Of a stretch of DNA of 49,197 nt, positions 1 through 2,706 are shown in pieces. The notes beneath the pieces were generated by a model. The model worked only from the letters and a program-made list of their open reading frames with translations. It was not told where the DNA came from and searched no databases. The stretch's first letter is position 1, and each line of letters begins with the position of its first letter. Source of the stretch: Elusimicrobia bacterium CG_4_9_14_3_um_filter_62_55. Its GTDB lineage: Bacteria > Elusimicrobiota > Elusimicrobia > UBA1565. A program made the position numbers and the translations under genes. The DNA lies in NCBI GenBank assembly GCA_002790095.1, contig PFUL01000141.1:1-49197 (forward strand). The letters are read 5' to 3'.

Positions 1-93
1 TAGCCGTGTGAGTCGAATAGCTCATGCACGGTTAGAAAGGGGGGCTCAGGAAACCGGAGGCAGTGCGCCCACCGGCGCCTGAGCCCTACCAAT
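1..93 (+). mobile_element. Group II intron, 3' end (domains V and VI), truncated by window edge
   Basis: Bases 2-33 fold as a group II intron domain V: AGCCGTG (2-8) pairs with CACGGTT (27-33), TGAG (9-12) pairs with CTCA (21-24), a two-base bulge TG lies at 25-26, and the AGC catalytic triad is at 2-4. Bases 39-90 fold as domain VI: GGGCTCAGG (42-50) pairs with CCTGAGCCC (78-86), T87 pairs with G41, A88 is bulged (the expected branch point), and C89-C90 pair with G39-G40. Branch-point distance and the usual AY ending put the 3' splice site near base 93 (AAT). The rest of the intron and any reverse transcriptase gene would lie upstream, outside the window. No T-tract follows, so a terminator is less likely. 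The fold is seen directly; intron identity follows from the known domain V consensus. Confidence 0.78.
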
Positions 94-1240
94 GGAACAC
101 GCCGACGACTTCTCCGAGCTCCTCGACTCTTCTCTTGAAGCCGCGGGCAAGACCTACGCCGTGGGGGATCGCCTGACGGTCGAGATCATCACCTTCGGCG
201 GTGAAGACGCGGTCGTCGCCCTCGGTCCCGGCCAAGAAGGCTTCGTCGCCGCCGCCGAACTCGCCGGACGCGCGTCGGGCGAAACCCTCGATCTCTTCGT
301 CACCTCCGCGAGGCCCGGTGAAATCCGCCTCTCCATCCACCCCACCGACATCAACATCGCCCGGGACCTGCGCGAGGCCTACGAGAACCGCCGTCCCGTC
401 GAGGGCCAAGTCTCGGAGGTCTGCAAGGGAGGCGTGCGGGTGAGGGTGCGCGGAAAGATCGCCTTTTGCCCCATCAGCCAACTGGATTTAAAGCGCGTCG
501 AGACCGGGGCTGAATTCGTCGGCAAGGTTTTGGCGTTTCGCATCACGGAATTCCGAGAGGAGGGCCGCGGGGTCGTGCTCTCGCGCCGGAAACTGCTCGA
601 AGAGGAGCAGGGACTCGCGATCGACGCCTACTTCGCCGAGCACCCCGAAGGTTCGGTCGTCTCCGGCTGTGTGACGCGGCTCGAACCCTTCGGCGCCTTC
701 ATCGAACTGCTGCCGGGCGTCGAAGGTCTCGCCCATGTCTCGGAACTCGCCTGGTCGCGCCTCGAGAAGCCCTCCGATCTCCTCTCGCCCGGACAGACCG
801 TCGCCGTCAAGATTCTCAAGCGGGACACGACGCAAGGACGCCTGAAAGTGTCGCTCTCGCTCAAGCAGGCCGCCGACAGGTCCGCCCCCGGGCCCGTCGA
901 CGATCCCTGGGCCCGCTATGCTCCCGGACAGGCCCTCGAAGGGAAGGTGGCGCGCAAGGAGCCCTACGGACTCTTCGTCGAACTCGAACCGGGAGTCGTC
1001 GGGTTGCTCCATCAATCGCGCACTTTGGACGATCCGGCGTTCGCCCTCGAGCGCCGAAAGGTCGGAGACCGCGTCGCCGTCGAGATCGACGAGGTCCATC
1101 TCTCCGAGCGCCGCATTTCGCTGCGGCTGCCGCGCGACCCGCAAGCCGAGGCCTGGAAAACTCGAGCGGTGGAGGACGGACCGGCGTTCGGTGCGCTCGG
1201 CGAAGGACTGCGCGCCGCGTTCGAGAAGAAGGCCTCCTGA
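92..1240 (+). CDS. S1 domain RNA-binding protein (ribosomal protein S1-like)
   Basis: 382 residues with four consecutive S1 OB-fold repeats at about 20-85, 100-170, 185-262 and 280-350; the third and fourth have the typical cores (PFGAFIELLPGVEGLAHVSE and PYGLFVELEPGVVGLLH). The opening DDFSELLDSSLE resembles the region just before the first S1 repeat of ribosomal protein S1, so little or nothing is missing at the N-terminus. S1 proteins bind single-stranded mRNA and help 30S initiation; four repeats is fewer than the six of the E. coli protein. The ATG at 92 has no ribosome-binding site of its own and overlaps the predicted 3' end of a group II intron, so the native start may lie in an exon outside the window. 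The downstream gene is convergent. Confidence 0.85.
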   Translation: MEHADDFSELLDSSLEAAGKTYAVGDRLTVEIITFGGEDAVVALGPGQEGFVAAAELAGRASGETLDLFVTSARPGEIRLSIHPTDINIARDLREAYENRRPVEGQVSEVCKGGVRVRVRGKIAFCPISQLDLKRVETGAEFVGKVLAFRITEFREEGRGVVLSRRKLLEEEQGLAIDAYFAEHPEGSVVSGCVTRLEPFGAFIELLPGVEGLAHVSELAWSRLEKPSDLLSPGQTVAVKILKRDTTQGRLKVSLSLKQAADRSAPGPVDDPWARYAPGQALEGKVARKEPYGLFVELEPGVVGLLHQSRTLDDPAFALERRKVGDRVAVEIDEVHLSERRISLRLPRDPQAEAWKTRAVEDGPAFGALGEGLRAAFEKKAS

Positions 1241-1246
1241 ACGATA

Positions 1247-1318
1247 GGGTGTCAGACCGTTACTTTGTCCTTTTCAGGGTCGTCGATGCAAAAGTGACAA
1301 AGTGACGGCCTGACACCC
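1247..1318. repeat. 72-bp imperfect palindrome (REP/MITE-like) between convergent genes
   Basis: Arms at 1247-1269 and 1296-1318 are 23 bases each and complementary at 21 of 23 positions, around a 26-base spacer. The outer sequence is GGGTGTCAG...CTGACACCC. It fills the space between the S1 gene (stop 1240) and lptB (stop 1320, minus). It could act as a two-way terminator, but the long GC-poor core and the GTGTCAG ends resemble dispersed REP or MITE elements mobilised by Y1/RAYT transposases. No transposase is present in the window and I noticed no second copy. Confidence 0.7.
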
Positions 1319-1319
1319 A

Positions 1320-2039
1320 TTAAATTTGGAAATCTTCGCCCAGGTAGATCTCCCGGGCTTTCGCGTCGTTGATCAGGTCCTGCGAGGTTCCGTCGAGCAG
1401 GATCTTTCCGTCGAAGATGAGATACGCGCGGTCGATGATCGGCAGGGTTTCGCGCACGTTGTGGTCGGTGATCAGCACCCCGATGCCCGAATTCTTCAGC
1501 TTGAAAATCATCTGCTTCAACTCGCCCACGGTGATCGGGTCGATGCCCACGAACGGTTCGTCGAGGAGAATGATCTTCGGGTTCTGAATCATGGCGCGCG
1601 CCACTTCCAGGCGGCGCTTCTCTCCGCCGGAAAGCGTCCACGCCTCCTGGCCCTGGAGCCGCCAGAGCCCGAATTCTTCCAGCAGGGACTTGGCCTTCGC
1701 GCGCTGCTCTTCTTCGTCGGGGATTGTGCGCTCTAGAATCGCCCGGAGATTCTCTTCCACGGTCAGTCCCTGGAACACTGTGGGCTCCTGGGCGAGGTAG
1801 CCCAGGCCTTTGCGGGCGCGCTGGTACATGGGCTGATCGGTCACATCGTGGTCGTCGATGCGGATGGCGCCGCCTTCCGGATGGAGGAAGCCCACCAAGC
1901 TGTAGAAGGTCGTGGTTTTTCCGGCTCCGTTGGGTCCCAACAGGCCGACGATCTCGCCCGAGCGCACGCGCAGCGAGACTCCCTTGACCACCTGGCGGTG
2001 GCCGTAATTCTTAATGATACCGTCGGCGATCAGGTCCAT
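1320..2039 (-). CDS. lptB: LPS export ABC transporter ATP-binding protein LptB
   Basis: 239 residues from the ATG at 2039. It powers extraction of lipopolysaccharide from the inner membrane together with LptF/LptG (not in this window) and pushes it along the Lpt bridge. Visible motifs: Walker A GPNGAGKTT at 35-43, Q-loop LAQEPTVF, signature LSGGEKRRLEVARAM, Walker B IILLDEPFVGID and switch His in ITDHNV. Length matches LptB. An in-frame ATG at 2069 would add ten residues but its GGGAG abuts the codon, so 2039 is preferred. The start overlaps the end of lptA by 29 bases, which suggests coupled translation. It is the last gene of the minus-strand run. Confidence 0.95.
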   Translation of the reverse strand: MDLIADGIIKNYGHRQVVKGVSLRVRSGEIVGLLGPNGAGKTTTFYSLVGFLHPEGGAIRIDDHDVTDQPMYQRARKGLGYLAQEPTVFQGLTVEENLRAILERTIPDEEEQRAKAKSLLEEFGLWRLQGQEAWTLSGGEKRRLEVARAMIQNPKIILLDEPFVGIDPITVGELKQMIFKLKNSGIGVLITDHNVRETLPIIDRAYLIFDGKILLDGTSQDLINDAKAREIYLGEDFQI

Positions 2040-2706
2040 CGAAAAATATCCACCCCCGGGCGCGTCCATCTCCCGTCACTTTGCGCCGTCCGCCGCCCAG
2101 ATCCCGGGCGGTAATCGAGTCCGCCTGCACCGCCGACGCCCACGAGGGCTCCCGTCCGGTGAGGACCGGGCGGCGCCCGGTCAAAGTCAAAAGGCGCGCC
2201 GCGTGCAGGTACTCCGCGCGTTCGGCGCGTAGGGTGCCGCGCGGGTCGTTGAGCGCCACCTCGCCCTCAAGGAGAAGGCGCTCCTCGCGCAAGCTCCAGG
2301 AAATCAGGCGCGCTCGGCCCGTTCCCGGAGTCCCGCCGTCGGGGGGAGTGCGCGCGAGGTCCACGCGCTCTGCGCCGCGCATCCACCCGTTGCCGGAATT
2401 CTCGTCGTGCCGGGCCGTCTTTCCCGCGGCCTCCAGCCAAGATCCGTCGCGCAGCAATTGACGCGCCCGAACGTTTCCTTCGGCCTCGAACAGCCCCCGT
2501 TCGTGATCGTAGCGCGCCCGATCGGCGCTCAGCACCCGGTCGGATTTAATGTAGCGCACGTCTCCCTCGAAAATCTCCACCTGATGGGGCTTTCGCAGGA
2601 TGCGCCAGCTCGCGCTCTTTACGCGGGCGCCGATCAGTTCCGGATCGCGCGCGGAGATCTTGGACGCAAGGACGGCCAGCAGAAACAGCGCGAACGCGGT
2701 CCTCAC
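2011..2706 (-). CDS. lptA: LptA/OstA-like periplasmic LPS transport protein
   Basis: About 231 residues from a GTG at 2706 that overlaps the lptC stop (GTGA). The N-terminus VRTAFALFLLAVLASKISAR is a signal peptide. The body has OstA-type jelly-roll strands: VEIFEGDVRYIKSDRVLSAD, then GLFEAEGNVRARQ, then LLLEGEVALNDPRGTLRAE, the alternating pattern of G-x-V and A-D-x-A elements seen in LptA and the LptD N-terminal domain. LptA forms the periplasmic bridge that carries LPS to the outer membrane. The position between lptC and lptB is the standard order. The same frame stays open upstream to 3063, but that part lies across lptC and has shadow-like composition. Confidence 0.85.
   Translation of the reverse strand: MRTAFALFLLAVLASKISARDPELIGARVKSASWRILRKPHQVEIFEGDVRYIKSDRVLSADRARYDHERGLFEAEGNVRARQLLRDGSWLEAAGKTARHDENSGNGWMRGAERVDLARTPPDGGTPGTGRARLISWSLREERLLLEGEVALNDPRGTLRAERAEYLHAARLLTLTGRRPVLTGREPSWASAVQADSITARDLGGGRRKVTGDGRARGWIFFDGPDRRRYH

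Follow-up and report, generated by a model that had tools for sequence, protein, structure and literature searches.

The first 94 bases of the window (the whole 49,197-nt stretch of DNA that was analysed) are very probably the 3′ end of a class C-like family of mobile group II introns, which inserts in the sense orientation directly behind the start codons of leaderless genes, i.e., behind a −10 box, approximately six bases and RTG. We observe the intron's anatomy, its multicopy spread in sense, the box and codon at its 5′ junctions, real genes at its 3′ junctions and empty sites. The target genes are only apparently leaderless, as judged from their sequence, and there are no transcript 5′ ends. 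The intron RNA and its protein seem to be ordinary for group II and nearest to class C; what looks new is the target.

The intron end and the gene behind it comprise the following features:
1 to 34, plus strand: domain V of a group II intron, 34 nt, with an AGC triad and a two-base bulge (from fold, Rfam and retention in relatives)
39 to 90, plus strand: domain VI with branch-point A88 bulged (from fold and covariation; the terminus UACCAAUG is kept in 47 copies)
92 to 94, plus strand: ATG, either the intron's final three bases or intron AT and exon G (the same in 8/8 host copies)
95 to 1240, plus strand: exon 2, the S1-like gene from codon 2 (from Pfam PF00575 and orthologue alignment)

Sequence and predicted structure together confirm that bases 1–94 belong to a multicopy group II intron, of which they form domains V and VI. 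The folding energy is −48.9 kcal/mol, against −30.7 ± 3.7 for shuffled sequences (z −5.0), and when six diverged copies are compared, 8 of the 30 pairs are altered on both sides with pairing kept. Conservation of domain VI with its bulged branch A implies selection for branching. Rfam's RF00029 matches the window at 25.6 bits (E 0.005), under the gathering score of 40, and the D5 matches there have E values of 0.0004 and 0.005; in two relatives, L042 and L170, RF00029 is above its cut-off (42.5 and 44.6 bits). The sequence-only reading had claimed this fold, bulged A88 included, and energy, covariation and relatives all bear it out. It had also held that a covariance model rejecting domain V would refute it: the window itself is sub-threshold, but the relatives pass.

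In the unspliced form, ATG 92–94 is the start codon of the S1-like gene, whose reading frame (92–1240, 382 aa) matches PF00575 in three stretches (Pfam, E 9.4e-43) and whose alignment with the orthologues L304 and L305 begins at codon 2. The window's first base is a contig edge (G000:C104), and each of seven further copies of bases 1–94 in the host genome also sits at a contig end, as expected if the assembly could not span so long a repeat. All eight host 3′ ends are identical through ATG and diverge immediately past it, where they lead into S1-like, sodium/solute symporter-like, signal peptidase-like, epimerase, Crp-like and aldo-keto reductase genes and two short frames (names reflect sequence resemblance, with Pfam run for S1 only). 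A search of the host genome for a reverse transcriptase (RT) found none, except a weak match in another intron; the body and RT of these copies are missing because the interior of the repeat is unassembled in this fragmented assembly. Host 5′ ends were not recovered by BLAST and pattern searches, only with a covariance model, and synteny with G005 and G007, in which gene order differs, did not identify the 5′ half of the host S1 gene.

The host genome carries other group II sequences as well. One is another multicopy intron (L010, L011 and L014, on contigs C43, C73 and C89) whose 3′ end is CTACCTAT; at least two of its copies continue with GTGAATTG. Its flanks differ, and none of the copies seen lies at a start codon. 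Another locus (L009, C4:3389–3464) gives a strong domain V/VI match of 58.7 bits, together with an RT fragment adjoining a transposase-like gene.

We searched 235 genomes of one bacterial class with a 3′ model (R1) built from six copies, and 28 of them gave matches. Within the class, 47 ends share the terminus CUACCAAUG (CCAATG), as does one record outside it. The training sequences ended in ATG, so this terminus is partly built into the model, but the downstream reading frames are not: in 41 of the 47 ends the ATG frame runs for 60 codons or more without a stop, compared with 3 and 13 for the other two frames, and the remaining six precede frames shorter than 60 codons. R1 also matches other group II introns, which end in UAY or GAC with no start codon after. 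The genes behind CCAATG ends include an epimerase, an aldo-keto reductase and BrnT, as well as signal peptidase-like, GatB-like, GlgB-like and FumC-like genes. Most family copies lie at contig ends, and the 5′ and 3′ halves are seldom on one contig.

The 5′ side was approached with a separate model (R3), built from the intron's first ~80 nt with all exon and the ATG excluded. It yielded 44 family 5′ junctions (14 genomes and L042), all of which read NTG and then intron, in the form NTG/KYGYGCC-like: ATG in 36, GTG in 7 (all seven G002 copies) and TTG in 1. Among the 43 junctions with at least 40 bases of flank, to which the count was limited, 36 have a TANNNT −10 box 5–7 nt before the codon, compared with a mean of 3.1 and a maximum of 9 in 2000 shuffles. 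The box is TATAAT-like, with an extended −10 (TGn) visible; the spacer is 6 nt in 32 junctions, and its positions carry approximately zero information. The other seven junctions fall outside the strict pattern, some through a spacing of 8. Related introns with other termini in the same genomes, taken as a control, have the box at 0 of 14 junctions, and no family copy was seen behind an ordinary Shine-Dalgarno start.

These counts refute chance, i.e., a single ordinary intron beside a single start codon. Conserved genes do host group II introns and a terminal ATG can arise randomly, but the same placement at 47 3′ ends and 44 5′ junctions in some 15–18 genomes leaves that reading with virtually no credibility; to revive it would take a systematic model artefact, and exon sequence was left out of the 5′ model. 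The sequence-only reading had treated insertion so close to a probably essential start as an uncommon event. It located the insertion correctly, but from one site it could not have told that such placement holds throughout the family.

A few truncated copies are also present: L336 (G040), L339 (G016), L340 (G073) and L337 (G058) are intron 5′ ends of ~100 bases followed by unrelated sequence, still directly 3′ of a −10 box and start codon.

Intron-free relatives, a comparison that the sequence-only reading had suggested, show the same genes with a −10 box, six bases and a single start codon. For example, the empty sites in G001 are TATAAT-CACCGC-ATG for the epimerase and TATACT-GCCTGC-ATG for the aldo-keto reductase, and the genes upstream of these two match the host 5′-junction contigs C185 and C121, which ties the 5′ and 3′ halves together. 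A −10 box lies 5–7 nt before the start in intron-free orthologues of the epimerase, aldo-keto reductase, response regulator, FumC and GlgB. The S1 orthologues in G005 and G007, however, are not leaderless, with TATAAT ~34 nt upstream and a GTG start.

GlgB shows which codon belongs to whom. Its start is GTG in the congeners G005 and G007, and G002 has GTG 5′ of the intron and ATG 3′ of it, so the host's codon stays in the upstream exon and the intron brings an AUG; this rules out the whole RTG being part of the element. The sequence-only reading had reasoned that the upstream exon must supply the start codon if the intron splices, which NTG at 44/44 5′ junctions supports, or that an unspliced intron donates it; since the intron's own terminus also supplies AUG, the codon is in fact supplied twice. 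With a host codon upstream and a terminal AUG in the intron, ATG precedes codon 2 whether the intron is removed or not.

The duplicated ATG also means that sequence alone cannot separate two placements of the 3′ junction, AT/G and ATG/, which give identical spliced RNA. An earlier proposal, splicing after base 93 (AT/G), does satisfy the AY rule and keeps G as the first base. We nevertheless favour a junction after G94, on sequence comparison: ATG/ aligns with GUGCG in several copies, leaves the branch A followed by six bases, the class C arrangement, and agrees with sister introns of the form ATGR/GUGYG...CUACUCGAC, whose exon 2 frame needs one base after ATG. Published class C ends are 5′ GUNYGCC ... 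CCUACYCGAU 3′, with six bases past the branch A (PMC4028801). The cost of this placement is a UG intron end, which violates the AY rule. The 5′ termini are GUGCG in G041, G021, G056 and most G199 copies, but UCGYG or GCGYG in others, so several deviate from GUGYG.

The sister introns come from the same bacterial class, at these loci:
L239, L253, L269 and L270 (genome G117)
L241 and L271 (genome G078)
L242 (genome G037)

They too lie at start codons, with 5′ junctions reading ATGR/GUGYG. They differ from the window's family in having a purine-rich Shine-Dalgarno-like stretch upstream rather than a −10 box, canonical termini (GUGYG and CUACUCGAC) and no intron-borne start codon. In the G078 sister introns, exon 2 mostly reads in the phase that requires a single base after ATG (8/9 copies, one of which is from G066). 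Keeping one base after ATG in exon 1 restores plausible protein starts in these introns, several of them signal-peptide-like.

Full-length introns of the window's family occur in G061, G021, G056 and L042. The spans in G061, G021 and the Desulfomonile-labelled record each lie on a single contig, as does that in G056, which has only 11 nt of 5′ flank and odd spacing. A BrnT toxin gene (Pfam) has the G061 intron at its start codon; the RT frame of this intron is interrupted by stops. L042 is 2,004 nt long with a 455-codon RT-maturase. The domain I–IV model RF02003 passes its gathering score in L042 (69.1 bits), L170 (78.7 bits) and L031, the cut-off being 49, and TIGR04416 is above cut-off in L042, L170 and L164 (416–430 bits). 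The sequence-only reading had predicted a 5′ end, domains I–IV and an RT upstream: all of these exist in relatives, RT-maturase included, but the body and RT of the host copies are missing, and domains I–IV are not assembled for the window's copy.

The best intact copy is L042 (JACRDG010000031.1); its contig of 3.3 kb belongs to a MAG that carries the label Desulfomonile tiedjei and lies outside the class, and the data here do not distinguish horizontal transfer from misbinning. In L170 (G021, 662–2584, minus strand), a 640-codon frame runs from the upstream exon's ATG through domains I–III into the RT-maturase, so that the captured start codon might serve to translate the intron's protein; this is not general, and in other full-length copies the frame soon meets a stop.

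The protein has RT and maturase domains, and no endonuclease domain was found. Its closest solved relatives are the IIC maturases 7uim and GsI-IIC (214 and 213 bits, with the next maturase at 174), so by similarity class C appears nearest, although no tree with class references supports this. Class C introns likewise encode RT and maturase without endonuclease, have similar ends (GUNYGCC, and CCUAC with six bases; PMC4028801) and do not insert inside coding sequence. They insert after intrinsic terminators or at attC hairpins, whereas the new family targets a −10 box and start codon; its 3′ terminus also differs (CAAUG as opposed to YCGAU).

Since AUG comes from the intron directly before codon 2 in every copy, and truncated copies exist (a few 5′ ends followed by unrelated sequence), the intron could be a domesticated 5′ leader that does not splice but equips the genes it precedes with a regulatory leader and a start codon. 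We give this little credence: no Shine-Dalgarno motif lies near the intron's AUG, which directly follows the stable domain VI hairpin, and the family has recently multiplied in several genomes and retains an intact RT-maturase in relatives.

A mobile intron would behave as follows. The captured promoter would transcribe the intron from its very first bases, starting at the R of RTG, an inference made without RNA data; the 5′ exon in the RNA would then be only about three bases, AUG. Splicing aided by the RT-maturase would restore the original leaderless message, though splicing is unproved, and new copies would presumably arise by reverse splicing into the non-template strand, mobility being likewise unproved. 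As the spacer is random, recognition of the −10 box cannot rest on uninterrupted base pairing. The site might instead be chosen because the open promoter complex exposes single-stranded DNA at approximately +1 to +3, because the intron's protein reads the box, or because selection purges insertions elsewhere. Our favoured guess is that the landing site is the single-stranded bubble of promoter-bound RNA polymerase.

The last of these options can be put more concretely: a very short EBS1 might read RTG alone, with many landings and survivors only at leaderless starts, where splicing restores the message. The codon is GTG in every G002 copy and ATG in nearly every copy elsewhere, a pattern that a short pairing could produce; class C introns are known for low sequence specificity (PMC4028801); and a UCAU motif that five domain I sequences share is a candidate, no more, for pairing with AUG. 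Against this, near-identical and hence young copies in G000, G068 and G199 are nearly all at the exact −10/RTG site, 6 of the 47 copies precede frames of <60 codons, an outcome not expected if selection acted for gene function, and no family copy was seen at an ordinary Shine-Dalgarno start. We therefore think this explanation possible but rather doubtful. Young identical copies already at the exact site and the six before short frames lead us to favour targeting over selection, without proving it.

Comparison of domain I loops with exons in five introns established no EBS1. One L042 loop matches TATAAT, but when the five domain I sequences were compared by eye, the match did not recur in the other introns.

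Splicing at the 5′ end might also be dispensable, if transcription starts at or within three bases of the intron's 5′ end and the ribozyme frees only its 3′ end, before insertion. The distance from −10 box to junction does set the expected start point at RTG's first base, and the spacer has no IBS1-like conservation. However, GlgB exon 1 retains the host start codon, so that a real exon boundary is present, and domain VI is conserved with its bulged branch A. We consider this version unlikely.

The boldest form of our proposal is a retroelement that lands at the transcription start point: it would enter the promoter bubble behind the first codon, have its own first bases transcribed by the captured promoter and carry a replacement start codon, with a 5′ exon of three bases or a 5′ end set by transcription initiation rather than splicing. 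We hold this only tentatively, at somewhat less than even confidence.

According to a 2015 review, bacterial group II introns have three kinds of target, namely homing sites, terminators and attC (PMC4424553), and terminators are the only target discussed in a 2022 genome survey (PMC8919778). Our literature search found no paper on group II introns at start codons or leaderless genes. Two known cases come near. The Azotobacter intron at the groEL stop codon is at the opposite end of the gene, in one gene, and belongs to another sublineage with a 5′ insertion; it does not represent a family that targets promoters and start codons. Thermosynechococcus TeI3 introns are inserted near start codons, between two of another intron's RT frame (PMC2882425), but at one conserved homing site inside F1 introns, whereas the new family occupies many unrelated leaderless-promoter host genes. 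A promoter box plus start codon thus looks like a fourth type of bacterial target.

If the family does read promoter box and start codon, this fourth specificity would connect retroelement insertion with the start of transcription. The family also illustrates how an intron can persist right at the opening codon of genes that are probably essential, with the host codon upstream and a spare downstream, and a 5′ exon of five to three bases would push exon recognition by a ribozyme to an extreme. In practical terms, the family points to leaderless genes in its class, for which our literature search found no study, and it might become an insertion tool that marks transcription start points.

The window itself contains seven occurrences of TANNNT-N6-ATG, compared with 2.1 expected, and five of the seven open genic-looking frames of 193–394 codons. 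The genes that begin six bases past such a box, which suggests leaderless transcription, are at:
30750
37064
38272
38919
41154, minus strand

Going by these sequence patterns, leaderless-like starts are present in the host genome, as a minority. Elsewhere in the window, an imperfect inverted repeat, GGTGTCAGACCGTTACTTTGTC ... GACAAAGTGACGGCCTGACACCC, occupies 1248–1318, between the S1-like gene and a converging ABC transporter gene.
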